Below, in pieces: positions 4,041 through 36,249 of a DNA stretch of 36,952 bases (its first letter is position 1; every line of letters begins with the position of its first letter). Source of the DNA: a virus. The stretch spans positions 1-36,952 of the IMG/VR virus record IMGVR_UViG_3300005613_004208; one strand, 5' to 3'. The translations under genes were made by a program, and so were the position numbers. Below the pieces are notes generated by a model. That model saw nothing but the letters and a program-made list of their open reading frames with translations, did not search any database and was not told the DNA's origin.

Positions 4041-4543
4041 TCGTCCCCTCCCTCTTGTTTTGATATCTCTCTAAATTCATCCCATTGAAATAATATTTCT
4101 TTCGCCCATTTCAAGACTCGTTTCTTCCTGGCTAAATCAATAAAGTATTCCCAACATTGATCTAATTGCCGCCCAACACGACAAGAAAAATCTAACTGTG
4201 CCTCTGTTTTAGCTTCTCTGTATAGTATTTCCGAGATGAAATTATGCGAAATACTTGGTGGTATTTTGACCCGAAGATCGGCATACCGAAGATCGGCAAA
4301 CAGAAGATTGGCACCCCAAAGATCGGCACCCCGAAGATTGGCACCCCAAAGATCGGCACCCCAAAGATCGGCAGCCTGAAGGTTGGCACTCCGAAGATTG
4401 GCATCTTGAAGGTTGGCACTCCGAAGATTAGCAGCCCAAAGATTAGTATTATTTTTCACTTTCAATTCAATCGCCTCTTTTATAGTTTTCTTTTTACTCC
4501 TAAAAATAACCTTACCGTTATATCTGTTTTTGACTTCAATCAT
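4037..4543 (-). CDS. Pentapeptide-repeat protein
   Basis: A 168-residue protein. Residues 33-92 hold twelve consecutive five-residue repeats of the A(N/D)LxX type, with the central Leu at every fifth position from 35 to 90. This predicts a right-handed quadrilateral beta-helix. The N-terminal 30 residues ([13 protein letters not shown]) are the usual cap of phage pentapeptide proteins. The C-terminal 75 residues are helical. Some pentapeptide proteins mimic DNA and bind gyrase, but that role is not shown here. The start overlaps the stop of the 37-aa membrane protein (ATGA), and the C-terminus is GGDE. Confidence 0.8.
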
Positions 4544-18337: not shown

Positions 18338-18643
18338 CTATACCAAATATGCCTCAATATGATGAAGACCTACAGAATCCTGTGGCTTCAATACTTTTAT
18401 TATACCACGATCAATGCCTCCATAGCGGAAATATAGATGTGTCCCTACAGTTTCGCTCGGCTTGAAAAACACTTTTGCCGAGCTTATCCGCTCTTCTCCC
18501 TTCTCGTCGGTTATTTTTCGAAATCCCTCCATGATGCGACATGCAACACCGGCAGTCACATTCTCAGAGGTTTTCTTACCCCATTTATCCTTCACATACT
18601 CAACCAGTGAGCCTGTATTTATCAGCAAGCTGTCATAACTCAT
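18338..18643 (-). CDS. Head-closure (head-tail joining) protein
   Basis: A 101-residue beta-rich protein with [10 protein letters not shown] and a C-terminal HHIEAYLV. Size and position just before the gp10-like gene fit an SPP1 gp16/lambda FII-type closure protein. Its ATG is 11 bp inside the end of the oxidoreductase-acetyltransferase gene, so the structural operon resumes with no gap after the glycan cluster. Confidence 0.65.
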
Positions 18644-20075
18644 TGCTCACTCCATTTTTGTTTACCGTCTTTATTTCTTTTGCAGGCACACCAACAGCTA
18701 AAGTATAAGCTAAAACATCTTTCGTGACAACCGATCCAGCTCCAATAAAGGCATATTCCCCTATAGTAACTCCACACAAAATCGTAGCGTTTGCACCTAT
18801 CGTCGCGCCCCGTTTTATAAGTGTTTTCTTGAATTCATCTTTACGATTTATATGACTTCTAGGATTGATCACATTAGTAAAAACACATGAGGGACCGCAA
18901 AAGACATCATCCTCGAGCGTTACGCCATCATAAATAGAGACATTATTCTGTATTTTGACATTATTTCCTACTTTTACATCCGGTCCGATCATCACATTCT
19001 GGCCGATATTACAATTATCGCCGATTACAGAGCCTCTTAGGATGTGAGAGAAGTGCCAAATCTTTGTTTTTTTTCCTATTCTCACACCATCGTCTATAAA
19101 CGAGCTTTTATGCACGTAATAATCGGGACTTGATTCATGGCATCTGTCTAATATTTTCAGCACAGCCAAAGCCTGCTTTCCATCCGTTCTGGGCAAATTC
19201 CTTGTTTTTATGCATGTGATGAAATGCTGGCATTCTATTTTCAATGGTTCTAGATGTTTACCCAAAAGCTCAGGAGCAAGTTTATATTCAGCGGCTTTTT
19301 CTGCAACTGGATTCTTCCCTCTTTCCCATATAATTTTATGTGGATAGATACGTAATTTTTCAGCCGATCGATCATCAAAGACAGCCATTGCTTTAGTCCC
19401 TACGACAACAAGCCTTTGCTCTTTATACGGATGCAACCAACTTACAAATATATGAGCTTTAGTACCGCAGGGAAATTCCATGAAAGTTATAGTCATATCA
19501 CTGATGTTTTTGTTTATGAATGCACCCTCATGATAAGTCACCACACTTGGCTCCTCCCCAACCAGGCTGAGAATAACCGATATATCATGTGGAGCAAAAC
19601 TCTGAAAGACATTCTCTTCTGTTCGGAGTTTACCTAAATTCAGTCTATTCGAATAGATATAATTGATTTTGCCGAGCTCACCCTTGGAAATCATTGCCTG
19701 TAAAATATCTATCGCAGGATGATATAGAAGAAGATGCCCGACCATGAGAATCCGCCCTTTATTATTTGCATGCTCAACAAGCTCCTTGCCTTCCTCGTAA
19801 TTCATGGCCAGTGGTTTTTCGACAAATACATCCTTGTTGGCCGATAATGCTTTTTTTGTTAATTCATAATGTGTCATTACCGGTGTAGAAATAACAACGG
19901 CATCGACCTTTTTATTCTCTAATACCGCTTCATAGCTATCGAAAGATTTGTCATCTTTTTCAGAGTCAATATCATATGTACCATATAAAGTTTTCAAGTT
20001 TGATAAAACACGGATTAGATTCTGCCCCCAATATCCACAACCCACGACGACTATATTTGGTTTTTTATTACTCAT
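18633..20075 (-). CDS. Gfo/Idh/MocA oxidoreductase fused to hexapeptide acetyltransferase
   Basis: A 480-residue two-domain sugar enzyme. Residues 1-310 are a Gfo/Idh/MocA oxidoreductase: NAD-binding VVGCGYWG (10-17), catalytic EKP (86-88), and H119 in YHP and APHD (161-164). Residues 322-480 are a left-handed beta-helix acyltransferase, with hexapeptide repeats such as [17 protein letters not shown] and [12 protein letters not shown]-like turns. The pair matches the WlbA (UDP-GlcNAcA 3-dehydrogenase) and WlbB/WbpD (3-N-acetyltransferase) steps on one chain. The pathway needs an aminotransferase between them, which is not in the window. It is the last gene of the glycan cluster. Confidence 0.85.
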
Positions 20076-21133
20076 ACCACCCCGCGATTAACGATCTTGC
20101 CACTTTCGTCTACGATCAAAAATCCTCTATATGTATATTTACGCAATCCTTTTTTGAGTTTAGGGATCCTGAATTTTTTACCCAGCGCAAGATATACAGA
20201 CCAGAGGGGGAAATTCAACCCAACGCAAATCGGCAGAAACATCCCCGCACCAAGCCGGGGATTTATCTCTGTTACTTTTGGAGTGCCATCCTCTGCTAGC
20301 TTGATGCTCAAGTTTATTGCATAGCTGAGCCTTAATTCTTCTGCCATCTGTTTTCCAATGTCAAGAATTGCCGGATGCTCTGCAAACGTCACTCGATCTG
20401 CAGCACTTAATATTACTTCGCTCTCCTCTCTCAATCCGCCAGCTATGAATTTATGAGTCGTGGGATCCAACAATAAATCAACTTCCCATTCCTGTCCCGG
20501 CAGGTATTCCTGTAGAAGGAGATCATTGAATTCCCTGCCTCTAAATATCTGCTTTAGAATCTGGGCATTGACGATTATCGAATACGGTTTCTCATTTCTA
20601 TATTGTTCGTAGAGATCGATCCTCTCATTGACTATCTTCAGTCCAATACTCCCATGACTTACGAATGGCTTTATTACAACGTTCTTTTCTGGATGACCCA
20701 ATCTTTTCATTTTTCTCTGCAAATCTTTCCAATCCGTCACTACTTCAAAATCCGGGATAAATGGTTGTCTCTCAAATCTCCTAGACATTAAATATCTATC
20801 ATTAGCAATCCGCAAGCCTTCAGAATCAGAAACACAGACAGCACAGCCTTTTTTTTGAAACTCTTCCTTATGCCGAGATAGTGCATCCAGCTCAAATGTA
20901 GCTAATGGTAAAATGACATCAATCTTTTCCTTTACTACAATCTCTAACATCCTTTCAATATAATAACGAGATCGTCCAGGGGAAACAGGATAGAATTTAT
21001 CGACCAGATATCTCGCAGGGATATCCCGCTGCATGTCCGTTCCGACAATCCTGATGTGAGAATCTTCTTTTAATCCCCGAATCAACGAAGGACCGCCAGG
21101 ACAGCCGACTGCCGTCAAGAGTACGTTAATCAA
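20072..21133 (-). CDS. ATP-grasp ligase, carbamoyl-phosphate-synthase-like
   Basis: About 353 residues. The N-terminal Rossmann-like part begins [13 protein letters not shown]. The ATP-grasp fold shows [10 protein letters not shown] (K160-G169, numbering from an upstream ATG at 21148), the [12 protein letters not shown] strand, and EINPRLGAG (294-302) with the Mg-binding Glu and Asn. I prefer the TTG at 21133: AAGGAG is 6 nt upstream and the fold begins directly there. The ATG at 21148 would extend 5 residues. Such enzymes in sugar clusters join an acyl or amino-acid group to a sugar amine; the substrate here is unknown. It overlaps both neighbours. Confidence 0.8.
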
Positions 21134-22016
21134 GTCGGTCTCCTTCATGCAATTTCAGCCTATCAAAAGCCTCTTTATCTCGAACCCTCTTTATCACTAA
21201 CAGATTATAACCTGTAGTTATTTTAATATGTCCATCCTTATCGACTGCCGAGATTTTCCCAGGGCGGAAATGAGGCTTATTATCTATTTCTACACTTGTC
21301 TCTTCAATGATGATTCTCTGACCTTTATAAAAACAGAACGCACCGGGATAGGGATAAACTAAAGCTTTAACTAAATTATAAATATCAATAGCATTTAATC
21401 GCCAGTTGATCCGCCCATCAGCCGGGGATCGTGACGGATAATATCGTGCAAGCCTATGATCTTGTTTCCTAGCTGTTAATTCCCCCCTCAGTAATGACTC
21501 CCAGCATCGATCTAATAATTCTGTAGTTTTTTCAAACATTCTTTTTCTTACCATTCCTATGGTGTCGTCGGGATATAATGGATATTCAATTATATCGATA
21601 ATGTCTCCAGAATCCAGAGTCTCTTCCATATAATGCAGGGTGACACCACTTTTTTTGCATCCCTTTATTATCACCCAATTCAGCATATTAGCACCACGCC
21701 ATTCGGGTAAAAGCGCGCCGTGAATATTTATTATCCCTAAGCGCACAACCTCCCTGGGAATAAGTGCTTTATAAGAACAGCTTAAAAGCACACAATCTCC
21801 ATTCTCTTTGATCTTCTCCGCTAATTCTTGTGCTGTAAATTTGCGACTTTCAATGATATCGGAATCAGGACAAATGCTTTTTATTTCATTGATTTTCTCT
21901 CTATCTGAATTCGGGGGGACCATGATAACGGGAACCTCATATTTCTTTCTCAACAAATATTTCAACACATGAATTCCGAATGAATTATGGCCGAAAAATA
22001 TCACTTTCTTTTTCAT
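21126..22016 (-). CDS. Methionyl-tRNA formyltransferase-like sugar N-formyltransferase
   Basis: A 296-residue enzyme. Residues 1-200 are the formyltransferase fold, with the catalytic triad N97, H99 (NIHG) and D135 (LDSGDI) and the loop LLPEWRGAN. Residues 205-296 (YNLVKALVYPYPGAF; RVRDKEAFDRL) form the C-terminal domain common to ArnA-type and Fmt proteins. Within a glycan cluster the likely role is transfer of formyl from 10-formyl-THF to an amino sugar. A tRNA role is much less likely in a phage. It overlaps the methyltransferase gene (ATGA). Confidence 0.8.
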   Translation of the reverse strand: MKKKVIFFGHNSFGIHVLKYLLRKKYEVPVIMVPPNSDREKINEIKSICPDSDIIESRKFTAQELAEKIKENGDCVLLSCSYKALIPREVVRLGIINIHGALLPEWRGANMLNWVIIKGCKKSGVTLHYMEETLDSGDIIDIIEYPLYPDDTIGMVRKRMFEKTTELLDRCWESLLRGELTARKQDHRLARYYPSRSPADGRINWRLNAIDIYNLVKALVYPYPGAFCFYKGQRIIIEETSVEIDNKPHFRPGKISAVDKDGHIKITTGYNLLVIKRVRDKEAFDRLKLHEGDRLD

Positions 22017-22612
22017 TTCAACTGCTTATTATAGAGATAAACCGTAAAATCATTCTTTTTATAATCACTCCTCAATATATGTCTATCGGTAAGGGGCTCA
22101 ATGATCCTCAAGATATCTTGATATTTCACATAATGAGCTGCGGGATTTCTGTTTTCTTCTCTGAATCTCAGGAAATTCACCGCCATACCAATTCTGGATA
22201 TTTTAAAGCATCTCTCTATTATAGCCTGAGTTCGATCGTCCCAATCTGCACACTCAAAATTGAAGAGTCCGGAGGCAATAACAAAATCAAACGCCTTATC
22301 TGCAAGAGTGCTTTCTTTTATATCTATACATGAGATGTTTAATTCTGGAGATTGCCTATTAACCTGCTTGACAATCCCAGGGTTAATATCGATGCCGACA
22401 TACTCTCCGAAAATTATCCTGCATTCTTTACAGAAATTGTAAAATTCCCCTAGTCCGCATCCAACATCTAAGATGCTCTTATTATTCAGGTCACCGATTT
22501 CAGAAAGAATACTAAACCTCAACCGCTGCACCTCTTTATCCCCCCAGCATTTATACGTAGATCCCTCGTTGTAATATCTGTCCATATGTTCGATCACTAT
22601 TTTATCATCCAT
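22013..22612 (-). CDS. SAM-dependent methyltransferase
   Basis: A 199-residue class I methyltransferase. Motif I is ILDVGCGLGEF (46-56), motif II includes YVGIDINPG, and FDFVIASGLFNF is the motif IV region. The acceptor is unknown; the cluster suggests a sugar. It overlaps the deacetylase by 16 bp and the formyltransferase by 4 bp. Confidence 0.8.
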   Translation of the reverse strand: MDDKIVIEHMDRYYNEGSTYKCWGDKEVQRLRFSILSEIGDLNNKSILDVGCGLGEFYNFCKECRIIFGEYVGIDINPGIVKQVNRQSPELNISCIDIKESTLADKAFDFVIASGLFNFECADWDDRTQAIIERCFKISRIGMAVNFLRFREENRNPAAHYVKYQDILRIIEPLTDRHILRSDYKKNDFTVYLYNKQLK

Positions 22613-23241
22613 CGTATTATATTGAATGCCTCGGCATATTCCGTCGTAATTTGGCTGCCCCTGACTTTTGCAAGTGCCTTGATATGGCTCGACTCAACTG
22701 GAATTCTTCCGAGTCGCTTTAATCTGAGCGCCTGCGATTTGTAACACTTCAAAGCATCCAGTTTTTTTTCAATATGCCTTTCTTTGAGCGAAATGAACGC
22801 CGTCGATTCAAAAGCGATGTTATTCCAGATTATCTCATAGCCTAGAATCGATGTATATTTGAATGCTCGGAAACCCTCTGCCGCAATAACGGAATGATCC
22901 TGATGTGTATCGTATTTCGAGGGAATGAAAACTAAATCAGGTTGAATTAGATCATTGAGAGTCACTAGATCTTCAAGTATCTCTTGTCTGAATTGCGTGA
23001 ATTTTCTGACAGGATATTTATAGATGAATAGATTTTTTGGGTCAATGCCAAGCACTTTCGATGCAGCCCGCGATTCATTCAGCAGTATATCTCTAGACAA
23101 TCCCTCCGGTACGGATTCTTCTGCAATCGAAAACGCTGTAATATAAACATCGTTACCCTTTTCGACATATCGGGCGATACTGCCACCGCAGCCCATTTCG
23201 GCATCATCGGTATGGGCGGATATGAAAAGGATTTTATTCAC
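22597..23241 (-). CDS. PIG-L family N-acetylglucosaminyl deacetylase
   Basis: A 214-residue PIG-L/LmbE protein. The zinc site is visible: AHTDDAE (H10, D12, D13; the family usually has HPDD) and THQDH (H113, D115, H116). The family removes acetyl groups from GlcNAc-type residues, creating a free amine. This would supply substrate for the neighbouring formyltransferase or the ATP-grasp enzyme. The start is a GTG that overlaps the upstream stop (TAGTG). Confidence 0.85.
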   Translation of the reverse strand: MNKILFISAHTDDAEMGCGGSIARYVEKGNDVYITAFSIAEESVPEGLSRDILLNESRAASKVLGIDPKNLFIYKYPVRKFTQFRQEILEDLVTLNDLIQPDLVFIPSKYDTHQDHSVIAAEGFRAFKYTSILGYEIIWNNIAFESTAFISLKERHIEKKLDALKCYKSQALRLKRLGRIPVESSHIKALAKVRGSQITTEYAEAFNIIRWMIK

Positions 23242-24176
23242 TATAATATCTCTAAAATTTCCCCAATCCTCTTGACTCGATTCTCAACACTGTGGTTTTC
23301 TCTTACAAATTTCATCCCTTCATAGCGAATATTTCTGTATGCCTCTGGATTATCAAGGCATTGGTTTATCTTATCGAATACGTTATCTCTATTTACAGAG
23401 ACATAATTTTTACCTGCTACAAATCCCGCCTCTCTGACATCAGCGGAATCCTCGGCCAGCAGAAGTGAGCCCGCTGCTGCTATTTCGTAATATTTTGCTA
23501 ACGGTGCACGTGACTTGGCAAGTCCTACAACAGAGCAGAGGTATTTATTTAGAACTCGTGCATAAGCATCGCCCATAACACCCTCTATTATTTTTGATGA
23601 TTCTCCACGTGGGGTCCCCCATCTTGGATGTCTCATAATATCGATTGACCGTGCTTTATTATCATCCATTAAAACCGTGCTTGCAATAATATGCCTGAGA
23701 TAATACCATTTTGATGTATTGCCACAAAGCAGGCACCGTAATAAGGGATGGTCATTAAACTCTAGTCCCACATATCGCTCATGAGGAGCAAAAAAGGTAG
23801 GGGAAACCTCTGCCTTATTTAGAAATTCTGGCCATTTTTTTCTGAATCCATCTCCTGCGCCACAGCTCAATAAATAATCGGCTCGCTTGAATGCTGGAAT
23901 CGCAAGATTATCGGTACGAGATAATGCGTGCAAACCATCGAGATAAAGGATTACCTTTACATTAGCTGGAAGGTCGGTTGATTCTTTAATCAAATCCTTG
24001 CCATGAACCCCTGCCTGTATTAGATATAGATCGGCGGCAATGCCTTTTAGCGAATCGGCGAAGATAAAATCAAATCCAAACTCATCGCAAAGTCGATTGA
24101 ACAGAACGGAAAAAGAGTCTGTATAGACTGTCCGTATCTGATGATACTTCATAGGCAAAACGATAACCTTTCTCAC
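23241..24176 (-). CDS. Glycosyltransferase, CgeB/GT4-like
   Basis: 311 residues from a GTG at 24176, which overlaps the previous stop (GTGA) and has GGAGG 8 nt upstream; a longer ATG reading would overlap the neighbour by 67 bp. The C-terminal half has the GT-B signature of CgeB-type enzymes: YYEIAAAGSLLLAEDSADVR (E in EIAAAG), then the standard repeated RYEGMKFVRENHS. The N-terminal half is Rossmann-like. Donor and acceptor are unknown. Confidence 0.75.
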   Translation of the reverse strand: MRKVIVLPMKYHQIRTVYTDSFSVLFNRLCDEFGFDFIFADSLKGIAADLYLIQAGVHGKDLIKESTDLPANVKVILYLDGLHALSRTDNLAIPAFKRADYLLSCGAGDGFRKKWPEFLNKAEVSPTFFAPHERYVGLEFNDHPLLRCLLCGNTSKWYYLRHIIASTVLMDDNKARSIDIMRHPRWGTPRGESSKIIEGVMGDAYARVLNKYLCSVVGLAKSRAPLAKYYEIAAAGSLLLAEDSADVREAGFVAGKNYVSVNRDNVFDKINQCLDNPEAYRNIRYEGMKFVRENHSVENRVKRIGEILEIL

Positions 24177-24694
24177 AATGGCCGCCTCCAAACTGTTACC
24201 ATCGCTTTTTCCGGCATTATAAAATCTTGTACCTTCCATCCGGCTTCTTTAAAATAGGGCTTAGCATAAGAATATTCCCAACGCTGTGCATCGTCTAAGA
24301 CAATGTATCCTCCCTGTTTTATATGCGGAGCTATACGTATGAGACTCAGGACTCGACCACGGCCATCAATGAAAGCAAGATCGAATGGCCCCTTGATTTT
24401 TGTCGGCCCCTGTGTCGGGTATGTGGGATCAAACCTGAGATCTACGTTTTTTAATTCCTTCTCTGCAAGGATGTGATAGACGAGATGATACCAGTCTCGA
24501 TTAGTCTCGAATGAGATGATACTTTTAACACGTTCTGCAAACCATACGGTAGAACTACCTGCTCCTGTTTCCAGCATTACTGTCTCCGGAGTAATGATTT
24601 TTTCAACAAATTTAAATGCTGTCATATTAATATGTGGGCGTCCATCAGTACTCATATATTTAGGCATTAGATTTTTAGGATCTTTTACCGACAT
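24173..24694 (-). CDS. Methyltransferase (class I, Methyltransf_24-like)
   Basis: A 173-residue protein from MSVKDPKN; GGAGG lies 7 nt upstream and this start overlaps the SDR gene end by 10 bp. Motif I is LETGAGSSTVWFAE, followed by ISFETN, and FDLAFIDGRG then GGYIVLDDAQR form the later motifs. This pattern is typical of the Methyltransf_24 group often found in capsule and LPS clusters. Acceptor unknown. Confidence 0.7.
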   Translation of the reverse strand: MSVKDPKNLMPKYMSTDGRPHINMTAFKFVEKIITPETVMLETGAGSSTVWFAERVKSIISFETNRDWYHLVYHILAEKELKNVDLRFDPTYPTQGPTKIKGPFDLAFIDGRGRVLSLIRIAPHIKQGGYIVLDDAQRWEYSYAKPYFKEAGWKVQDFIMPEKAMVTVWRRPL

Positions 24695-25602
24695 TCGTAA
24701 ACCTCCTTCATCCAATCGATTGTTTTTGGTATCCCCTCTTCCAGCGGCATTGTCGGATTGTGGCCAAGTTCTCCTCTGGCTTTTTTGATATCAGCTCGTT
24801 TATCCAAGACATTATGTTTGTCCTCCGATTGATAGTTAATTAATCCGTGATCCTTTCCTAGATAATCCAAGACGATAGCATTCGCTTCTTCTACACTACG
24901 AAATGCTTGACCTCCGATATTATATACTTCTCCAGGTGAAAATCTTTCGCATACAGTCGCTATTGTAGGCGTAGCATCGTCAATATACATAAATGTCCTG
25001 TGATAACCTAAATAAACTTGATATGGAATATCAAAAAGTGCTCTGTAACAGAATAGACAAATAACACTTCGATAGTTATGATAATATTCTCCAGGTCCAT
25101 AGGTATTAAAAAGCCGCAACCGTACACATTTATTTTTATATCGTTTCTCAAAATTCATTATTTGTATTTCATTGACCCATTTCGTAACAGCATAATCATT
25201 TTTTTGGATAATAGGCACCTGGAGTGGGAGATCTTCGGAGAGAAGAGATTCGTTGTCACCGCCATAGATTTCAGACGAGCTTGTGAATATCAATTTGAAT
25301 CCCTTTCGCTTCTGCCATTCAAGGATATTTCTCATACCGATTACATTCGTCTGCCACAAATTCTCGTAATATTCCTCACCATTAATCCGACCAAACTCTG
25401 CTGCTAGATGATAAACAACATCATAATCAGTCGCCTCGAATACACGCTCTAATTGCCTATATTTTGACACATCTGCTCTTATGTAATTCAGATCTCTATG
25501 ATGTGAGAGATCACACTGCCAGACTTCATGTCCTCTTTTTGATAACTCCTCTACAAGGGGAGTCCCGATCGTACCCTTGCTGCCTGTCACTAAGATTTTC
25601 AT
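24685..25602 (-). CDS. NAD-dependent nucleotide-sugar epimerase/dehydratase (SDR)
   Basis: A 305-residue extended SDR. NAD binding is TGSKGTIG (6-13). The catalytic set is Ser in FTSSSEIYGG (108-110), Y137 and K141 in DYAVTKW. NTYGPG (166-171) and the later FMYIDDA are typical of UDP-sugar epimerases and dehydratases. It acts on a nucleotide sugar, but which one cannot be read from sequence. ATGA overlap with the sulfotransferase gene. Confidence 0.85.
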   Translation of the reverse strand: MKILVTGSKGTIGTPLVEELSKRGHEVWQCDLSHHRDLNYIRADVSKYRQLERVFEATDYDVVYHLAAEFGRINGEEYYENLWQTNVIGMRNILEWQKRKGFKLIFTSSSEIYGGDNESLLSEDLPLQVPIIQKNDYAVTKWVNEIQIMNFEKRYKNKCVRLRLFNTYGPGEYYHNYRSVICLFCYRALFDIPYQVYLGYHRTFMYIDDATPTIATVCERFSPGEVYNIGGQAFRSVEEANAIVLDYLGKDHGLINYQSEDKHNVLDKRADIKKARGELGHNPTMPLEEGIPKTIDWMKEVYECR

Positions 25603-26318
25603 TCCATATCCTTCCAGTGCTCGGTTATTAGCGATGATGACAATAATTTCGCCAGCCGTTTATTATGTGATTTGTAATGTAGCCGCAGCCATCTCCGTAC
25701 CTCTTTACTTACCATCGGGGAGCCATATTTAGCTTTACGCCATGCGAGGGGGTCGTAATAAGTTTTTTCGAATATTGTTTTATGTGCAACCTCATGACTG
25801 ATGCCGGCACGCATTGCAACAAGCCTGGTGAGTGGAATCGGCTTATCAAAAAAATCCTCACTTGCAATTATGAGGAACCGATCTCGCTCAAAGAATTCAA
25901 ACCACCGTTCTAGATGCTTGGCATAATAGCCTTGTTTGACACAATGATGACTGCTGTCGATAAGTACTTCGGGATCGCTGCCGAATTTATCCTGATTCCA
26001 CCAATAATGGCTGACACAACGGGTGACTGGCTCTCGTAACAATACTACTAAATTAATATCAGGCAAGAGATCCTTAACTCGACTCGGTACATCTGGGCTT
26101 GCTAGATAGAATGGCGTTGCTTCAAATATCACCGCGTCTTTCGGAGCTTGCTTAAATTGTTCCCCATACCATGCGACACCCTTTTCAAAATGCTGATTAA
26201 AATAATGCAGTTCCTTTATCGGCTGCCCCCAAAGTCCTGGGATTTGACAAAGCATATGGAAAAGTGTACTGGTGCCTCCACGTGGAGTGCCGATTATCAG
26301 GAATTCAGGCAGTTTCAT
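25599..26318 (-). CDS. Carbohydrate sulfotransferase, heparan-sulfate-type
   Basis: A 239-residue PAPS-dependent sulfotransferase. The 5-prime phosphosulfate loop is IIGTPRGGTSTL (8-19). KELHYF (35-40) gives the KE pair found in heparan-sulfate sulfotransferases. FEATPFYL follows, then the 3-prime phosphate motif REPVTRCVSHY (R95, S103). This order is that of NDST/HS3ST-like enzymes. The product would be a sulfated glycan. PAPS must come from the host, since no PAPS synthase is in the window. Confidence 0.85.
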   Translation of the reverse strand: MKLPEFLIIGTPRGGTSTLFHMLCQIPGLWGQPIKELHYFNQHFEKGVAWYGEQFKQAPKDAVIFEATPFYLASPDVPSRVKDLLPDINLVVLLREPVTRCVSHYWWNQDKFGSDPEVLIDSSHHCVKQGYYAKHLERWFEFFERDRFLIIASEDFFDKPIPLTRLVAMRAGISHEVAHKTIFEKTYYDPLAWRKAKYGSPMVSKEVRRWLRLHYKSHNKRLAKLLSSSLITEHWKDME

Positions 26319-26692
26319 CAGAAGCCAATCTCCCCGGAAACGATCTTATTTTCAATTGTCTGCATTTCCTTTTTAAGCACTCGGCGGCAATCACCCCAAG
26401 TCATAATATTGGCTTTCTTTTTGCCAAATATCTGTGCTGCAAATAATCGGAATTTACCCTCTTCGATCTGATTGCATTTGAGGCAATAATAAACCGGCAG
26501 CTCTAGCCCACGATCTAGCATCTTGTTTACCTGCTCCCAGTTATGCCAATCACTACGACACATTGTCATAGCTCGCTCAAATGGTAGCTTGAAAATTGGA
26601 TGTCTCAATGGCACGCCGGTAACTATCATACCCTCTGGCACTGTGGATAAATCAAGATTTTTATTCCATGCTATTTTACTGAATTTTTCCAT
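26318..26692 (-). CDS. Small ParB-like protein in the glycan operon
   Basis: A 124-residue protein. The middle (HNWEQVNKMLDRGLELPVYY) and IEEGKFRLFAAQIFGKKKAN resemble the ParB/Srx core, in which a helix is followed by xxGxxRxxAAxxxG. Several members of that fold bind or hydrolyse nucleotides (CTP, ATP). Catalysis or regulation of a sugar step is possible but not shown. Overlaps both neighbours. Confidence 0.5.
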   Translation of the reverse strand: MEKFSKIAWNKNLDLSTVPEGMIVTGVPLRHPIFKLPFERAMTMCRSDWHNWEQVNKMLDRGLELPVYYCLKCNQIEEGKFRLFAAQIFGKKKANIMTWGDCRRVLKKEMQTIENKIVSGEIGF

Positions 26693-27507
26693 AACTCCTC
26701 CTCATTTAAAAGACATGCATTAATCCATGTCCATATACACTCTGGTGTGCAAGAATATAGAAACATTTTTTTAGCGGCCGCTCCAATAAATTTACACTCG
26801 GCACGATGCTTGCGACACCATTCAATTTTCTCTATTAAATCCGAATAATCATCAGCACACTCCACATAATGCAGCCCCGGCATCGGCTCTCTCCAATGAG
26901 GTAATCTTAGGTCTAAACGAGGTGATATCGTACAGGCGCCGAATGCCCAATATTGAAATTGTCCACGATCAAGCATATCATTACGCGCACCAGGAACGCA
27001 TACACTCACAAGACAGTTGTTGATTTTATTCCAAAACTCCTGTTTACTGGTTATTGTTTTGTCAAAATTCTCACCATACTCCTCTTCAAGCATTGACTGC
27101 ACCTTCTCACGCCGCTCTTTAGCACCTGCTCCAGGGGTTTGATTATTGAGTACCATATTGCTTTCCACTGTATATGTTATCTCCTGTTGAAGATGTTCAT
27201 ATTCATCCCAATCGTAAAAACTTATCGGTGTCAATGGGTATAAATGCGGTGTCTTGACATGTGTATATTTTGAATAATGGAATTTAAAAACAATGTCATA
27301 CTCATCTATATTTTCCGGTAGCCATGTATGATCGCCATAATCGATAAGTATTCGCTTGCCATCAGCCTGTGCCTCTAAATAATCATGTTCAAAATCTTTA
27401 TACTCTACTGTTATACCGACGGCCTTGGCCAGGTTAATAAAAAACAGATAATGTAAATCATAATATTTTTGTCCATGATTTTTTGGCACTACTATGCTTT
27501 TTATCAT
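26671..27507 (-). CDS. Putative glycosyltransferase (GT-B C-terminal type)
   Basis: A 278-residue protein. The C-terminal half (QFQYWAFGACTISPRLDLRL, GLHYVECADDYSDLIEKI) matches the donor-binding region of CgeB- or CAP10-like glycosyltransferases, where an aromatic-rich helix precedes xGACxxSP and an acidic loop. The N-terminal half is Rossmann-like with DYGDHTWLPENIDEYD. No family can be fixed. ATGA overlap with the GT2 gene. Confidence 0.5.
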   Translation of the reverse strand: MIKSIVVPKNHGQKYYDLHYLFFINLAKAVGITVEYKDFEHDYLEAQADGKRILIDYGDHTWLPENIDEYDIVFKFHYSKYTHVKTPHLYPLTPISFYDWDEYEHLQQEITYTVESNMVLNNQTPGAGAKERREKVQSMLEEEYGENFDKTITSKQEFWNKINNCLVSVCVPGARNDMLDRGQFQYWAFGACTISPRLDLRLPHWREPMPGLHYVECADDYSDLIEKIEWCRKHRAECKFIGAAAKKMFLYSCTPECIWTWINACLLNEEELWKNSVK

Positions 27508-28169
27508 TTATCCGCCCATCTTCCTTCTGTAACTAGATCGAATGTCGTACCCCAAATCAGGCCTTTGGTTCTACGTTGTGACATTATCCCCCTATCACGG
27601 AGTTTGGTTTTTTGTACTAATGCATTTGTTTTATCTCTTTTATGATGGTGCAAGAGCGTTGACGATTCGACGTAAAAAAATTTGTTGTTTACTCTTGCAT
27701 ACCGCCCGATCTCAAAATCACAGCTAAAATGTATGAAATCTGGACAGAATGTATGCCTGCGGGGAAAGTGGTTAATGAATTTCCGACCCATCAGTCCGAT
27801 AGCCCCCTGCACGGCTGTTGGCTTCTGTTTCATGCCGATGAGTCCGTCACCGTCTGGAAAATGCACATCCATTGCTTTCACAAGCTCATCTATCATTGTG
27901 GGGGGAAATTCCAGATCATCTACTGCATATAAAACAGCATCACCCTGCGCATATTGTAATCCACGATTAATTGAATACGGCCAATCTCGACGCGTACTGT
28001 TATAAATAATAGCTACTGGCCATTGAGTTACAAGGGGCAATAATTTTGGATCATTGTCAATAACAACAAAGATAGTCAGGTCTTTGTGCGTATTATTCAA
28101 TAAGCTCTTAACGTTTTTCTCCAATGCAGCAGGTCGCCCGATTGTAGGGATAATCACATCAACATGCAT
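27504..28169 (-). CDS. Family 2-like glycosyltransferase, copy B
   Basis: A 221-residue GT-A protein. The nucleotide-binding start is VDVIIPTIGRPAAL, followed by TIFVVIDND, and the metal site is VDDLEF (83-88). It is a clear paralogue of the next gene upstream: the same RRDW at 60-63, DDLEF and FIxHFPRR-type features occur at the same positions. The start overlaps the upstream stop (TAATG). Confidence 0.75.
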   Translation of the reverse strand: MHVDVIIPTIGRPAALEKNVKSLLNNTHKDLTIFVVIDNDPKLLPLVTQWPVAIIYNSTRRDWPYSINRGLQYAQGDAVLYAVDDLEFPPTMIDELVKAMDVHFPDGDGLIGMKQKPTAVQGAIGLMGRKFINHFPRRHTFCPDFIHFSCDFEIGRYARVNNKFFYVESSTLLHHHKRDKTNALVQKTKLRDRGIMSQRRTKGLIWGTTFDLVTEGRWADK

Positions 28170-28822
28170 TATGACTCCTTTCGCAGTAATTTAAAGTCCC
28201 GGCCCCATAATAATCCCGCCTCTCTGCGTATGTCAATATAATGAAAATCCTGAATCTCCATCGGTTTTGCCGTACGATAGGTAGTGTCTTGTAACCGGTG
28301 GTGCTTGACCCGTGCTTCATCACAGATATGGAGTCGATTGATACTATGCGCAAATCGCCCCAGTTCAGAGTCACTTCCATAATGCACATAATCCGGACAG
28401 AAAACAGCTCGATCGGGAAATCGTTCAATGAACCGATGTCCTAATAACCCAAATGCTGTACTACAGCCGACGACACTTTGTTTTATTGCTATGAGTCCAT
28501 CTGTATTAGGCATCTTTTCCTCTAATCGATTAACGGCAATCTCAATACAGCGTGGATCGAACTCAAGGTCATCACTTGCATAAATAACAGCCCCCTCTCG
28601 TTTATATCGCAAGGCACGATTCATACTCCAAACCCAATCTCGACGCTCCTCATTAAATAGCACCTCAGCCGATAGACTCTTAGCTAATTGCAATAATTCT
28701 TGATTGCCATCAACGATAATTAATACCGATACATCTTTGTACGTATTGGAATGGATGGATTCTACGGTTTTTTGTAATAATGACCAGCGGTCAAGCGTTG
28801 GGATTACAACCGTTACGTGCAT
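28169..28822 (-). CDS. Family 2-like glycosyltransferase, copy A
   Basis: 217 residues from the ATG at 28822, which overlaps the previous stop (TAATG) and has GAGG upstream. GT-A features are VTVVIPTLDR at the start and SDDLEF at 83-88. It shares position-by-position motifs with copy B (RRDW at 60-63, YASDDLEF against YAVDDLEF, FIERFPDRAVFCPDYVHY against FINHFPRRHTFCPDFIHF). A tandem duplication followed by divergence, probably with different acceptors. Confidence 0.75.
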   Translation of the reverse strand: MHVTVVIPTLDRWSLLQKTVESIHSNTYKDVSVLIIVDGNQELLQLAKSLSAEVLFNEERRDWVWSMNRALRYKREGAVIYASDDLEFDPRCIEIAVNRLEEKMPNTDGLIAIKQSVVGCSTAFGLLGHRFIERFPDRAVFCPDYVHYGSDSELGRFAHSINRLHICDEARVKHHRLQDTTYRTAKPMEIQDFHYIDIRREAGLLWGRDFKLLRKES

Positions 28823-29694
28823 TAAATTACCTCGTGATATACTTTTGTATACTTCTTCACACATTCAATGGGATGCCATTCTTGCAATACCCACAACCTA
28901 GACATTTCACCTATCCTCTCTATCGTCTTCGGATTATCAATTAGCCATAATAATTGTTGCTCTAATGTCTTTAGATTTGCGTATGCGAATGGTTCTTTAC
29001 GTATTTTATTTAAAATGACACAGCCGAAACAGGCTCCCTCGAGTGATGTACGATGCCAGTTACCAGTAACTACATCATCAATTATGATATGACTCCGAGC
29101 CTTCATCTTCAAATTCTGCTCATATGGCATCCCCTCTATCCAGACAATTTCTACATCACGTTTCGATGCCACGGAATCAAGGATATGCCTGACTTCATGA
29201 TAGCCCTTGCTGTTCACCATACTTGTCGGGAAGCGAGTTGTTGGTGCAAATGCGATAGAGATTTTCGTATTCTTTTTTACCGGATAATATTCATCTGGAT
29301 CAATCATATTCGGAAGCGACGGCAGACTGTATTCTTTCTCTTGTAGTGGCTGGCTAATCGTGTAGCATTTATCGGCAAATTTCATCAATTGCTGCCAATT
29401 CCCCAGCCTAGGCAGTGAATGAAATTGTGCTATCGTAGGAGGCTTCTTATTCATCCCTACCAAAGATGGAGTCAAATAATTGTGTATATGCCAGATATCG
29501 GCCCCTTTTAAACGGTCCATAGCGATTCCAGTACTTGAAAAATAAAGCAAATCATGCGGGAATACTCGTCCATCACGATATTTAATTGTCTCATTTATGA
29601 GCGTAATATCGTGGGCTGTATATTTCTGTAATGCCTTGAAAAGCTCCCACGGAGCACCAGCTAGAGCTGTTTTACTGTAGATTACGATTTTGAT
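28822..29694 (-). CDS. GT4-like glycosyltransferase without a normal start codon
   Basis: The coding frame runs back to an AUC at 29694 with no ATG, GTG or TTG before residue 48 (ATG at 29550). The extra N-terminus (KIVIYSKTALAGAPWELFKA) is a typical GT-B first strand and helix, so it is almost surely coding. GGAGGG lies 5-6 nt before the AUC. In the wrong frame an ATG is followed by AAATC; adding one A would give ATG AAA ATC. Either AUC is used, or a base is missing (mutation or assembly error). The remainder (ADIWHIHNYL, SLEGACFGCVIL) is GT4-like. About 290 residues. Confidence 0.7.
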   Translation of the reverse strand: MKIVIYSKTALAGAPWELFKALQKYTAHDITLINETIKYRDGRVFPHDLLYFSSTGIAMDRLKGADIWHIHNYLTPSLVGMNKKPPTIAQFHSLPRLGNWQQLMKFADKCYTISQPLQEKEYSLPSLPNMIDPDEYYPVKKNTKISIAFAPTTRFPTSMVNSKGYHEVRHILDSVASKRDVEIVWIEGMPYEQNLKMKARSHIIIDDVVTGNWHRTSLEGACFGCVILNKIRKEPFAYANLKTLEQQLLWLIDNPKTIERIGEMSRLWVLQEWHPIECVKKYTKVYHEVI

Positions 29695-30029
29695 TTCATC
29701 CCTCCAATCGTCTCTCGTTCTATGTCTGGATCTTCAAGGAAAACTTGATAAATCTCTATACAGACCGTATCCTCAAGTGCTTCGAATTTGTGAAAAAATC
29801 CTGGGGAGACGGCAGTGCATTGCCCTGGTCTGATCACAGTTATATCTTCATCATTTCCATGCCAGATTGTTATTTTTAACAATCCAGAGATTACATAAAA
29901 AAGATTATATTTATGTTTGTGAGAATGTTTAGAACAATATCCACCTTTTTTTATATCCAAGTGATGGGCTGATACTAATGCGTTTCTAAAAAATTCTGTC
30001 GTTTCTCCCCAAATTTTACCGGCTCTCAA
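29682..30029 (-). CDS. Cupin-fold protein
   Basis: A 115-residue cupin. Motif 1 is GGYCSKHSHKHKYNLFYVISG-like, with H35, H37 and H39; the usual Glu is not at its expected place. Motif 2 is PGQCTAVSPGFFHKF with a conserved His at about residue 80. Small cupins in sugar clusters act as epimerases or ketoisomerases, but the altered motif makes activity uncertain. It overlaps the DUF115 gene (ATGA) and its tail overlaps the GT4 frame. Confidence 0.7.
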   Translation of the reverse strand: MRAGKIWGETTEFFRNALVSAHHLDIKKGGYCSKHSHKHKYNLFYVISGLLKITIWHGNDEDITVIRPGQCTAVSPGFFHKFEALEDTVCIEIYQVFLEDPDIERETIGGMKSKS

Positions 30030-30739: not shown

Positions 30740-31380
30740 GATGCTAGAATTACCGGCTTCCTCTGCTTCAGATAGTGGCGCAGAATTTTGTCAACCGATG
30801 GGATTCCGGTATAAATACCATCTTTTGCATATCCGGCAGCACCTAGTTTATAGCTGTAATCACCAATTTTCTCACTCACATATCCACCCTTTGTCTCGAT
30901 CGTCCCATCATTTACCGCATCTGTAAGCCAGATGATTGCCTGTTTGATCGGTTCTGGCACCTCCTCACCATAGGTGCCGACGATTCGGATGTTATTATAG
31001 CCACGTGGGAAAAGTCCTAAATTAGCACTTTCACCAGACCGATAGGCAAGCTCTGACCAGTAGCCAGCAGCAGCAACGGCAGTCGCGGAGGCACAGAGGT
31101 CGATATAGATAGAATTCTCATCATAAGCATACCAGCTCGTATCAAGCTCGATGCCACAAATATAGACATTTGTAACGGTCACAATATCGGCTCTCAGGGG
31201 AAGCGTCAAGCGATTTTTGCCATTCCCATTGATCTCTATATCGAATGCCTTGACATAGAAATGTCGACCCAGGATCTTTTCAATTAATTGTTCGGCAAAA
31301 GCTATTGCCGCAATTTTATCGGCATCCGTTGTGCCGGACGGCCATGAGGTTACATTTTCAGGGTTTATGTAATTTCCGAT
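30736..31380 (-). CDS. Head-tail adaptor (connector) with AUC in the start position
   Basis: 214 residues when read from the AUC at 31378-31380. The frame is open back to a TGA. No ATG, GTG or TTG precedes an internal TTG at 31209, which would drop the first 57 residues. These residues (NYINPENVTSWPSGTTDADK, then AAIAFAEQLIEKILGRHFYV) are the conserved start of gp6-like adaptors, so they are coding. A perfect AGGAGG sits 6 nt before the AUC. The later part (KQAIIWLTDAVNDG; SVDKILRHY) fits the helical connector. Overlaps the DUF115 gene at its end. Confidence 0.7.
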   Translation of the reverse strand: MGNYINPENVTSWPSGTTDADKIAAIAFAEQLIEKILGRHFYVKAFDIEINGNGKNRLTLPLRADIVTVTNVYICGIELDTSWYAYDENSIYIDLCASATAVAAAGYWSELAYRSGESANLGLFPRGYNNIRIVGTYGEEVPEPIKQAIIWLTDAVNDGTIETKGGYVSEKIGDYSYKLGAAGYAKDGIYTGIPSVDKILRHYLKQRKPVILAS

Positions 31381-31399
31381 AACACACCTCCTTCATGCG

Positions 31400-31479
31400 C
31401 ATAATAAAAAAGGGGAGTCAGACAAGCCCCGGGGGAGGTTCCTTTCGTTAATAGAAAGATAAGCTGTCTTGACTCCCCC
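31400..31479 (-). terminator. Rho-independent terminator inside the late operon
   Basis: On the minus strand a long stem (GGGGAGTCA with TGACTCCCC, then a bulge and GACA with TGTC; 31412-31424 with 31465-31478) is followed by six T. The loop holds a second CTTTC/GAAAG hairpin. It lies between the LamG-like gene and the adaptor, so it should lower expression of connector, glycan and tail genes relative to capsid genes. Confidence 0.8.
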
Positions 31480-31513
31480 TGATTTCGCATCTTTTGTTAT
31501 CTCTTAGGTGTGC

Positions 31514-32574: not shown

Positions 32575-33711
32575 TTAGCATCTATGTGTCAAGCATCTCA
32601 GGAATACGATCGCATTTACGTTTTCGATTGCATAATCCATGCGGATGGTGTAGAAGAAATAGGTTGCATCATCAGGCGGCACCCTCCAAGTCTCTACAGT
32701 GATTTTGCGCTGAAGTCCTATAATGAGATTGCCTTTCCGTGTGAGCAGTACATCTGTGTAGTTTCCACTATCAACTAATCCGTAGGTACCGTCGGCATCT
32801 TGACCAAGGGTTGTTGGCATGAGCGGCACATCGATAATAGGTACTTTTCCATACTGGGGAGGAACTTTGCCTGAGAAGATGTCGTCTCCAAGAGTTGTAG
32901 GCCTGGCACTGAGTGCTTCTAGATAATCCTGTGTCACTAGGTCGCTATTGAGAAAGACAAAGTTACCGAGTCCACCTGTTTTGTATTTTGATGGCATATT
33001 CTTGATCATCTGATGATACTTGAATTCCCAATTGTACGGTGCATTTGTATCCTGTTCGGCAATACTGCCAGCAAATTTGAAATCGGCATCCGCGTCTTCT
33101 GCCTCATCATCACAGCTCGCTCCACTCTCACAGAGACATGCATCCTTGATGTCGGCAGCCCCACAGACCTCATTGTAATAATCCTCTCCGTCCGCACTGT
33201 GATTGATCTGGTAACGCCAACCATCGAATTTACTGCGCAGATTATCAGCTGCAAAGCTATTTAGACCATGTGTGTCTGCCATGTATGCTACATCTTCAAG
33301 CTGGTTTGCAATCTTTGCTGTCACTAGTTTTATGAGATGAGCCTTGAATGTTGCCTCATTCTCTACGTGTTTAATGTCCTCGATGTCATCATCGAAGATC
33401 GGGAATGCACCTCTTGCCTTCTCCGTGCTCAGGCGGATGCGGTTCTGTGTCCACTGCTTTTTGTATTTCGACTCATTGAAGGCTTCGGCAGGATATAAGA
33501 AGTCTTCGTCACCAAAACCAATGTGTCGGATATACTTCTGTGGCTGACCCATGCGCTCGATTCTGGCATAGTTTTTCATCACCGATTCATCAATGAGGCA
33601 GTCGAGGAATTTATCAGCTTCTTGCGGTGGCAGTTCTATTTCCGGCATCGAAATCAGATTGTAGTCTTTATTGACTTTGAACCTACTAAGCAGGTCTTTT
33701 GATGTTTTCAT
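32575..33711 (-). CDS. Major capsid protein (HK97-like)
   Basis: A 378-residue protein. An N-terminal helical arm, then YPAEAFNESKYKKQW and IRLSTEKARGAFPIFDDDIE, followed by a long helix (FKAHLIKLVTAKIANQLEDV) and C-terminal beta region (GNLIIGLQRKITVETW). These match HK97-fold capsids of E-loop, spine helix and A domain type. A Cys-rich acidic insertion at 183-200 (C183, C192, C194, C200) is unusual. It follows the protease and scaffold genes, as expected. Confidence 0.8.
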   Translation of the reverse strand: MKTSKDLLSRFKVNKDYNLISMPEIELPPQEADKFLDCLIDESVMKNYARIERMGQPQKYIRHIGFGDEDFLYPAEAFNESKYKKQWTQNRIRLSTEKARGAFPIFDDDIEDIKHVENEATFKAHLIKLVTAKIANQLEDVAYMADTHGLNSFAADNLRSKFDGWRYQINHSADGEDYYNEVCGAADIKDACLCESGASCDDEAEDADADFKFAGSIAEQDTNAPYNWEFKYHQMIKNMPSKYKTGGLGNFVFLNSDLVTQDYLEALSARPTTLGDDIFSGKVPPQYGKVPIIDVPLMPTTLGQDADGTYGLVDSGNYTDVLLTRKGNLIIGLQRKITVETWRVPPDDATYFFYTIRMDYAIENVNAIVFLRCLTHRC

Positions 33712-33733: not shown

Positions 33734-34495
33734 TTATCCGAAAAATTGAATCGACGGAAAATCGTCCTCTACTTTATCATCCTTTTTCACATCATCTTTG
33801 TCCTGGTCTTTGAGTTTCTGCGTTTTCCCTTTCTCCTTCAGCAATGGTAGAATCGGTTCAAGCAGCTCTTCCATCGTATCTTTGATGAGTTTTTTGGTAT
33901 CCTCTTCACTTTTCTCATCTGTCTCTTTTTTGACTCTCTCGGCCTCTTCTTTCTCCATTCGAGTTAGCTTATCCAGCTTATCGAGTGTTTCATTCGATAA
34001 TTTTTCTTCTTCATCCTCTTTCTTTTTCTTCTTCTCTGTTTTTGATTCCAACATCTTTGCACATATATCTCGGATCCGTTCAATCTGCGCTCTCGTCGCC
34101 TTAGACAGCGATGCGCCAACTTTCTCGATATTTTCGATGAGATATTTTGAGTAATCCTCTTCCGTCAATTCGGTTTTTTCTACAACTCGGCCACAACTTG
34201 CCTGTTTAAGCAGTGTAAGCTGAGCTTTTAGAAATTCCGGAGGAAAAGAATCACTGTAAACTGCGATGGCATTCATAGCGCCGGTAATTGCCTCGACCTC
34301 TTCATCGGACAACTTCTTGGCCTTTGCAATGTCTTCCTCAGCCAACCCTTCTTCCCCGAACAAACCCTTTAGTAATTCTAGGAACTTCTCCATTTTCTTC
34401 TCCTTCTTGATATAGAATTTTTTACGGTTTGCTCCAGATTCGACAACAGAGATTTCCTCTATGTCGATGTCTTTCAGCTTTCTTGGTTTTTTCAT
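33734..34495 (-). CDS. Scaffold-like protein
   Basis: A 253-residue, very charged helical protein (KKKKEDEEEK; EEAERVKKE) typical of scaffolds. The first 25 residues (DIDIEEISVVESGANRKKFY) resemble the peptide at the end of XkdF-type proteases (ISxVxxGANxKxF), suggesting that an ancestral protease-scaffold polypeptide was split. It lies between the protease and the capsid gene. Confidence 0.7.
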   Translation of the reverse strand: MKKPRKLKDIDIEEISVVESGANRKKFYIKKEKKMEKFLELLKGLFGEEGLAEEDIAKAKKLSDEEVEAITGAMNAIAVYSDSFPPEFLKAQLTLLKQASCGRVVEKTELTEEDYSKYLIENIEKVGASLSKATRAQIERIRDICAKMLESKTEKKKKKEDEEEKLSNETLDKLDKLTRMEKEEAERVKKETDEKSEEDTKKLIKDTMEELLEPILPLLKEKGKTQKLKDQDKDDVKKDDKVEDDFPSIQFFG

Positions 34496-34534
34496 TCAGC
34501 TATTCCTCGAAACTGAATTTATTGTTTTGGAATC

Positions 34535-34620
34535 CCCCCTAGCCCAGGGTTGGCATTCTCAAGACCCGCGAAGCATTTGCGAGCCTTGAACGCTAGGCGT
34601 CAGCATGGAAACATCTGACC
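34535..34620 (-). ncRNA. Structured leader RNA upstream of scaffold and capsid genes
   Basis: On the minus-strand transcript three helices form in order. A hairpin GTCAGATG / CATGCTGAC (34599-34619, one bulge) comes first. An outer 6-bp helix CCTAGC/GCTAGG (34592-34597 with 34538-34543) follows. Within it is a 10-bp helix CAAGGCTCGC/GCGGGTCTTG (34579-34588 with 34560-34569) with two G-U pairs. Those two G-U pairs would be A-C or C-A mismatches on the plus strand, which indicates a minus-strand RNA. No known riboswitch or ribozyme core is recognised. It lies within a predicted leader of about 160 nt. Confidence 0.45.
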
Positions 34621-34663
34621 ACTATCTCCAAGCTCTCAAATCTTACGATCTGCTTTCTATTTC

Positions 34664-34693
34664 AGAATAAAATGAAATATCGTTCAATGTCAA
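34664..34693 (-). promoter_or_regulatory. Putative late promoter upstream of the scaffold gene
   Basis: A perfect -35 TTGACA (34688-34693) overlaps the stop codon of the protease gene. The -10 is weaker (TATTCT at 34664-34669, 18-bp spacer; TTTATT at 16 bp is an alternative). It would make a leader of about 160 nt that holds the structured element. Confidence 0.45.
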
Positions 34694-36249
34694 GAATTAT
34701 TTTCACTTGCTGCCGATCCCCCCATTGAAAAACCATTGATCTTACCTTTCTCAATATCATCCCACACAGCCTTATCCGTCACTTTCAACATCAACCACCA
34801 GGCACCTTTTTTGACCGTCTGGCCGCCACGCTGTATATCATGCTCTGGCTGAAAACATTCCATTATCGGGAAGGTGTGAGTCGCCCCTTTGTGTCCGATC
34901 TTGATGCGCTTGGAGTTCTTTGCATATTTCTCCATAAAATCATACATTGCCTTCTGTATTTCCTCAGCATCAGCATAATCGCCCTGCGTATCCACCGCAT
35001 CCGGCTCATAGACAATCCCACCTACGATCTGCTTCCTTTTATTCTGTTTATAGAATTTAAAAAACCAATCGGATTTTATCACGCCTTTCTGACGTAATTT
35101 GGCACGCTCTTCTTTCCACGCCTTTTCATCATCCCATTCATTTTTATTATACCAGCTTTTTGGCATATTGCATACATTGCCAACTGGTTGTTCATCGCCA
35201 CATGTCAGACAGCGTGGGTGTCCATTTGGATGCGTATATTTAGCTGCTCTAAATTGATGTGGTTTTTCAGCTTCCGGTCGTTTGGCATTCTCTTTTATTC
35301 GCGCCGTTTCTTCATCACATTCCTTTCGTTGGGCTGGTGAAAGACCCTTGGTTACATCAATGGCGGCCGATTTCTGTCCCGGCCCTGGACGTTCTTTTCT
35401 CCGCATCTTCCCCCCACATTTCGGGCATTCAAGATCTTTACAATGCTCCTCTGTCTCTATCGTATGGCCACATTCCAAACACTCACAATTAAACACCTCT
35501 TTCTTTGCCGGTTTCTTAAACGCCTGTTCTGCGATCCATTTCTTTGCCTCCGCCATTGTCCATTTGTTTTTATCGAAAAGATACGTCCTGATACGCTTTT
35601 CTTTGCCACAATAAAGAGCTTTAATTCCTTTTTCCGTTGATATGTCAATCGTTGCCGTTATTTCACACACAGAACCAATCGGGATACGGACATATTGCTC
35701 CGTCACTTCCGGTTTTGATATTTCGATACGTCGCAAAGACTCTTTCGGTCTCAATACTAGGTCATAGAGAGGGATTTCTGTTTTTCTCAGCGAATCCGGG
35801 TCGGGATCGAAATTAACTTCTTTGCATATCTCACCACTGAGTACATCCTTCAATATTGACTCTATCAGATCATCATCAGCATCCTTTACCATTACATTAA
35901 CACTCTCGGCATCAACAGGGCTATCAACAAATGGCCCACTTATCGTTACACAGTCTTTGATGACAACCTTCTCACCAAGACTCTTGATATCTAGCCCAAA
36001 CATCGCCTTACGGAATACTGATTGATCCAATGCCGTCCCTCGTGACACTTTCAAACCACGACCATGAAGCTCTTTTAGTAGTAGTCGATATCTTTCGAGC
36101 AGGCCAGACCGTGTGATTGTGTCTGCTTTTTGTGTGGCTTTATTTTCAAAGTTCTTGCCATAGAACTGCATGAAACGCAACCGTAGTTCATAGAGTTTCT
36201 CTTTCGGAACCTTGGTAAGCGCCTCTGCCGTTATATCTTCTATCCTCAT
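34690..36249 (-). CDS. XkdF-type prohead protease with zinc-ribbon insert
   Basis: A 519-residue protein. Residues about 396-512 are an XkdF-like domain (QIVGGIVYEPDAVDTQGDY; later WWLMLKV and GFSMGG), a predicted capsid-assembly protease. Before it come two Cys clusters: CLECGH with CPKCGG (C257-C278) and CLTCGDEQ to C360, plus a KWTMAEAKKWI motif found next to such proteases. Residues 1-230 are an unassigned domain. It precedes the scaffold and capsid genes. Confidence 0.75.
   Translation of the reverse strand: MRIEDITAEALTKVPKEKLYELRLRFMQFYGKNFENKATQKADTITRSGLLERYRLLLKELHGRGLKVSRGTALDQSVFRKAMFGLDIKSLGEKVVIKDCVTISGPFVDSPVDAESVNVMVKDADDDLIESILKDVLSGEICKEVNFDPDPDSLRKTEIPLYDLVLRPKESLRRIEISKPEVTEQYVRIPIGSVCEITATIDISTEKGIKALYCGKEKRIRTYLFDKNKWTMAEAKKWIAEQAFKKPAKKEVFNCECLECGHTIETEEHCKDLECPKCGGKMRRKERPGPGQKSAAIDVTKGLSPAQRKECDEETARIKENAKRPEAEKPHQFRAAKYTHPNGHPRCLTCGDEQPVGNVCNMPKSWYNKNEWDDEKAWKEERAKLRQKGVIKSDWFFKFYKQNKRKQIVGGIVYEPDAVDTQGDYADAEEIQKAMYDFMEKYAKNSKRIKIGHKGATHTFPIMECFQPEHDIQRGGQTVKKGAWWLMLKVTDKAVWDDIEKGKINGFSMGGSAASENNS

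Follow-up and report, generated by a model that had tools for sequence, protein, structure and literature searches.

Attenuators of the trp type comprise four RNA segments that pair either as 1:2 together with 3:4 or, alternatively, as 2:3. Among phages, the lambda pR'–tR' leader is a promoter-proximal RNA with a terminator soon after its start, and HK022 put is a promoter-proximal RNA that folds into an antiterminator; we know of no strand-exchange chain in either. The scaffold protein of P22 is reported to lower its own synthesis through feedback control that is post-transcriptional. In Bacillus subtilis, the rplJL (L10(L12)4) leader is subject to autogenous transcription attenuation through overlapping anti-antiterminator, antiterminator, and terminator helices (PMC4538822), and the yxjA purine riboswitch is described as operating by cotranscriptional strand exchange (PMC9756952).

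The window, by which we mean the whole stretch of DNA that was analyzed, is a 36,952-bp IMG/VR virus record with its late genes on the minus strand. A noncoding gap of 194 bp (34496–34689, minus strand) is bounded by open reading frames at 34690–36249 and 33734–34495, both on the minus strand. A structured leader RNA of unknown class had been predicted here, before the scaffold and capsid genes, and covariation among relatives, a promoter of its own, and the lack of an Rfam match are all in agreement with that prediction. The features of the locus are as follows.

34690–36249, minus strand: 519-aa protein with an XkdF-type head maturation protease domain (PF14550, domain match) at its C-terminal end
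34664–34693, minus strand: putative sigma-70 type promoter, TTGACA at 34693–34688, 18-nt spacer, TATTCT at 34669–34664
34637–34652, minus strand: 5' hairpin 0:1, CAGAUC-GUAA-GAUUUG, whose 3' arm coincides with the beginning of segment 1
34524–34642, minus strand: extent of the conserved leader RNA by covariance models R1 and R2
34627–34642, minus strand: segment 1 (GAUUUGAGAGCUUGGA), the 5' strand of helix 1:2
34575–34593, minus strand: segment 2 (GCGUUCAAGGCUCGCAAAU), which pairs with segment 1 (with one bulged G) or with segment 3
34552–34567, minus strand: segment 3 (GGGUCUUGAGAAUGCC), which pairs with segment 2 or segment 4
34524–34539, minus strand: segment 4 (GGGGGGAUUCCAAAAC)
34553–34593, minus strand: hairpin 2:3, containing G-U pairs; the terminator stem in relatives with a T-tract, here without one
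34530–34558, minus strand: hairpin 3:4, the bulged hairpin of the original prediction
34494–34518, minus strand: hairpin around the scaffold ribosome-binding site (AUUCAG...CUGAAU), z -2.5
33734–34495, minus strand: scaffold-like gene, the first after the leader
32575–33711, minus strand: major capsid protein gene (PHROG 1623)

Pairing among the four segments can give helices 1:2, 2:3, and 3:4. Since segment 2 pairs with either 1 or 3, and segment 3 with either 2 or 4, two mutually exclusive states result; helices 1:2 and 3:4 are able to coexist, and 2:3 excludes both. The leader shares these alternatives with trp-type attenuators. In contrast to those, its T-tract, when present, follows 2:3 rather than 3:4, and it has no leader peptide with regulatory codons; no conserved small open reading frame or leader peptide was found in 16 leaders, so the locus does not conform to the ribosome-controlled, trp-type design. 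The overlapping helices 0:1, 1:2, and 2:3, located downstream of a promoter and before genes of structural assembly, are reminiscent of rplJL. Unlike rplJL, the phage leader precedes head genes, carries an extra segment 4 past the terminator, and has no conserved leader peptide; no ligand was found for it, and the window copy lacks a T-tract. The likeness to yxjA lies in helices that would be swapped successively during RNA synthesis. The phage leaders differ in that no conserved aptamer was found in them; conservation is confined to the pairing segments, and the loop within 1:2 varies in length and sequence between lineages. Lambda pR'–tR' and HK022 put resemble the leader in their general description as promoter-proximal phage leader RNAs. 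The likeness to P22 is that of scaffold synthesis under feedback, which for the phage leader concerns a candidate signal only; no sequence relation to P22 was shown, and the P22 mechanism differs in its post-transcriptional mode.

The promoter matches the consensus at 10 of 12 positions, and its TTGACA overlaps the TGA stop codon of the protease gene, as had been noticed in the original prediction. Nearly all leader-bearing relatives carry a promoter at the same place (TTGACA or close to it, a 17–19-nt spacer, and a TATTTT- or TATATT-like -10 element). Judged by sequence, the leader therefore lies directly downstream of a promoter, as an attenuator does. The untranslated gap had also been called conspicuous; it is real, but it is not unique, as the late region contains others, of 171 and 304 bp. 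In the 304-bp one, about 200 nt form an open frame without a standard start codon, which is likely coding. In that gap (31210–31513, minus strand), the roughly 200 nt share the reading frame of the adaptor gene and resemble the adaptor N-terminus in relatives, and the adaptor gene therefore seems to have a nonstandard start or to be changed.

The capsid protein of the window is 24–27% identical to annotated major capsid proteins of Streptomyces phages, and the scaffold has a basic, conserved N-terminus (RKLKDIDI...ANRKKF). The first residues of the scaffold (EISVVESGANRKKF; 34382–34495, minus strand) match the N-terminus of the protease family phrog_3017, which suggests, from the sequence, a rearranged protease–scaffold gene. 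The scaffold could actually begin at an internal ATG at 34393, which is in frame and preceded by AAGGAG. The protease protein of relative L003 (L003:1734–5036) has 1100 aa, with a PF01068 domain (ATP-dependent DNA ligase) and a PF12706 domain (metallo-beta-lactamase fold) fused ahead of the XkdF protease; that of L004 has 1111 aa, and the 519-aa version in the window shows the protease domain only. Elsewhere in the window, an HNH endonuclease gene (16855–17421, plus strand) sits opposite to the late genes inside a 713-bp late-gene gap. A long block between the tail and head genes (18633–30029, minus strand) holds genes resembling sugar-nucleotide, formyl-, and glycosyl-transferases, of which one member was searched and found to be a GFO_IDH_MocA plus hexapeptide protein, the others being judged from their translations. 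A pentapeptide-repeat-like protein, assigned from its translation, is encoded at 4037–4543 (minus strand).

The comparison set comprised about 80 related phage contigs. In a sequence-only alignment of seven leaders (A4), which was not fitted to the structure, 9 of 10 pairs of helix 1:2 had changed on both sides. The covariance model built from it (R1) was run over both strands of 588 kb and found 24 leaders, each directly before the scaffold gene; 17 of them had been held out, with E values from 3e-14 to 8e-3 (the weakest being L048). The held-out leader L052 reached E 0.10 with R1 and 4e-4 with the refined model R2. Away from the leader position, R1 gave no convincing match in the same 588 kb (best E 0.045, both strands). 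In the alignment of 24 sequences, which was fitted to the structure and is biased towards it, both-sided changes were present in all 10 pairs of helix 1:2 (93.8% of cells paired) and in 8 of 11 pairs of helix 3:4 (77.9%), and sliding the partners by one column lowered pairing of the whole structure from 85.5% to 56–64%. A bulged purine in segment 2, mostly G, is a fixed feature; its exclusion from pairing raised the paired cells from 150 to 185–186 of 200. Compensatory changes, on whose presence in relatives the original prediction had been made to depend, are thus clearly there, and the covariance-model search proposed alongside it recovered its held-out leaders all at the same place.

Searches for a known family were negative. 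Neither the window nor eight relatives matched Rfam 15 at the gathering threshold, and permissive Rfam searches returned only noise far below it. Family models of self-cleaving ribozymes, tRNA, and tmRNA gave no match, and a literature search restricted to open-licence papers found no description of the leader RNA. Sequence comparison provides good support for a real, conserved RNA family, apparently one not previously described.

The single-sequence fold signal is only modest (minimum free energy on the minus strand -58.4 kcal/mol, z -2.4, with 3 of 200 shuffles as good; z -1.9 on the plus strand), and the proof of the RNA is therefore comparative. A homology-free test for double complementarity within single sequences did not place the window above shuffles and was significant for relatives L004, L008, L042, and L074. 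The z score of only -2.4 is the one point in favor of a chance fold left over after a protease–scaffold gene split. Covariation in the relatives refutes this explanation, the held-out model matches and the fixed position oppose it as well, and it was rejected as having next to no chance of being correct. A bulged hairpin and a nested two-helix element had been proposed for the window, and both hairpins were located (34530–34558 and 34553–34593). As a single static fold, however, that description is incomplete: conservation applies to a group of helices that compete with one another, and helix 1:2, which has the strongest covariation, is missing from the minimum-energy fold of the window. Further upstream, a hairpin like 0:1 was seen by eye, with no statistical count, in about 10 relatives, and by the same inspection it competes for segment 1 in several leaders, including that of the window.

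Conservation also extends to the competing helix 2:3. In the model alignment, whose fitting did not involve this helix, 86.3% of its cells are paired versus 49–50% when it is slid by one, and its changes are mostly one-sided, to G-U. Among 20 leaders aligned by hand, 29 cells had changed on both sides versus 12 expected, a count reached in 0 of 2000 shuffles. Conserved, mutually exclusive helices of the antiterminator and terminator kind are therefore a property of the family. Among the 2:3 cells of relatives, G-U outnumbers A-C by 71 to 5 in the hand alignment and by 76 to 15 in the model alignment. Because a G-U pair becomes an A-C mismatch on the other strand, this excess indicates that selection acts on the minus-strand RNA, and it upholds the earlier remark that the G-U pairs of the inner helix are valid only on that strand.

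Based on these data, we consider an attenuator-like switch, working by transcription attenuation or pausing on the scaffold–capsid mRNA, to be the most likely model, with an inferred probability of about one half. A second-ranked and more doubtful alternative is that the leader acts on the finished mRNA, through 5' stability, processing, or scaffold translation, with 1:2 plus 3:4 as its working fold. These two helices do show the best covariation, relatives L003, L021, and L052 are predicted to remain in that fold, and several lineages have a hairpin at the scaffold ribosome-binding site; against this stand the 2:3 complementarity kept across diverged leaders with its strand-specific G-U changes, and the T-tracts added exactly after 2:3 in several lineages. 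Hairpins at the ribosome-binding site, differing in sequence, occur in the L003 and L042 clades and in L045, and are absent in others. Processing of the leader, which had been raised in the original prediction, found no support in this analysis.

A run of T follows the 2:3 stem in L046, L053, and L110, where it was called terminator-like and corresponds to the run of U expected after the terminator stem of an attenuator. In L008, L045, L063, and L074, the same arrangement was identified by eye, as their loops exceed the limit of the scanner. The predicted intrinsic terminator in these relatives lies about 100 nt downstream of the promoter, and in the capsid tree the T-tract leaders are scattered rather than forming a single group. 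The window copy has no run of T after 2:3; it is therefore not itself an intrinsic terminator, and it is named attenuator-like rather than counted as an intrinsic attenuator. The spacing of about 100 nt between promoter and terminator-like stem in the T-tract lineages would also fit a small RNA gene, whose product of about 100 nt acts in trans (for example, on the virion or on other mRNAs) and for which the scaffold mRNA is a by-product or read-through. This reading is unlikely, given that segment 4, past the terminator, is conserved too, that most model-positive leaders have no terminator, and that the element is never found away from the scaffold gene.

The genomic distribution was traced through the capsid gene, with 13 relatives from a capsid protein search and 80 loci from a capsid profile. 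In the capsid tree, 34 sequences including the window form one supported clade, all of which carry the promoter and leader as far as they were read. A sister group of 14 mostly has only 6–49 nt between protease and scaffold genes; its members with leaders are L062, L063, L064, L066, L074, and L078. Four of these (L062, L064, L066, and L074) show no obvious resemblance in sequence to the window leader and possess the same chain of helices, including segment 4. For L006, L007, L012, L031, L033, L034, L039, L040, L050, L051, and L056, the promoter is present and the leader model gave no match. A search of 2.9 million viral contigs with the 2:3 core pattern returned 25 stretches; the new model-positive copies among them (L103, L110, L115, and L118) all lie before scaffold and capsid genes. 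When 24 whole records were searched, 14 had one strong match each, and no convincing further copies were found in the same phages, the extra matches being weak or at chance level. Where the protease is followed by inserted genes, the promoter and the leader remain with the scaffold. Extra open reading frames or sequence have been gained at the protease–leader junction in L004, L007, L042, L043, L047, L049, L052, L110, and L118. No DNA similarity to cultured phages was detected. In two cultured phages that encode a distantly related capsid protein, a single annotated protease gene precedes the capsid gene by 31–36 bp; neither phage has a separate scaffold gene, and the interval is too short for a leader. 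No capsid relative was found among 84,980 cellular genomes.

Pairing probabilities of the growing RNA were computed for 19 leaders, on thermodynamic grounds only, with neither kinetics nor proteins. In these calculations, helix 1:2 is present once segment 2 has been made in 18 of the 19 (the exception being L045), and 2:3 is present after segment 3 in 16; L003, L021, and L052 keep 1:2 plus 3:4 throughout and never form 2:3. After segment 4, the predictions diverge: L074 and L064 return to 1:2 plus 3:4, as does L048 until the last bases; L004, L042, L047, L037, L049, and L062 show mixed folds; and the window, L011, and T-tract leaders such as L046, L053, and L110 stay mostly in 2:3.

In the attenuator-like model, the gap would encode the 5' leader of its own scaffold–capsid transcript. 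As the RNA grows, 1:2 would form first, segment 3 would then capture segment 2, and in some leaders segment 4 would recapture segment 3, with this competition setting the amount of scaffold and capsid mRNA. Helix 2:3 would serve as a terminator or pause stem and, combined with a T-tract, would halt transcription about 100 nt from the start; 1:2 would be the antiterminator and the optional 0:1 an anti-antiterminator. Helix 3:4 may fix the read-through form, and segment 4 could dismantle the terminator stem behind the polymerase. In T-tract leaders, 3:4 cannot prevent termination, because segment 4 is not yet transcribed when the polymerase reaches the terminator. Where lineages have no T-tract, as is the case for the window, the competition would act by pausing, at another stop, or on the mRNA itself. 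More tentatively, a factor that biases the leader towards one of the pairings, for instance free scaffold protein or an antiterminator from the phage, might turn the leader into a switch. Free scaffold protein is a reasonable candidate for this signal, since the scaffold gene is the first downstream.

Closely related is autogenous control, in which scaffold protein (or capsid protein) in free form would reduce its own synthesis by binding either to the leader or to the hairpin at the ribosome-binding site. The leader does lie directly before the scaffold gene, whose product has the basic N-terminus noted above, but no conserved loop sequence marks a protein site, and we regard this account, itself a version of the attenuator-like explanation with a named signal, as improbable. 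Binding of a virion protein to the leader, another suggestion of the original prediction, is possible, and its proposal that the leader tunes capsid and scaffold expression is likely right. The fullest form of the switch model is unlikely as a whole. In it, a dedicated strand-exchange switch in the nascent leader would sense the state of head assembly through scaffold or capsid protein in free form and meter capsid and scaffold transcription accordingly; a large clade of uncultured tailed phages would have inherited this switch, and the sister group would have rebuilt it from unrelated sequence.

More generally, phages have to match a single protease gene to capsid and scaffold subunits needed by the hundreds, and little is known about RNA-based control of head genes. 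Control of capsid production by RNA refolding is conceivable because the leader segments pair in two mutually exclusive ways. The family combines strong covariation, a fixed position, and an unusual design of competing helices, and it would offer a compact natural attenuator whose versions with and without a T-tract occur together in one clade. It makes testable whether refolding of the nascent RNA sets capsid supply, and capsid production in these phages may be controlled in this way.
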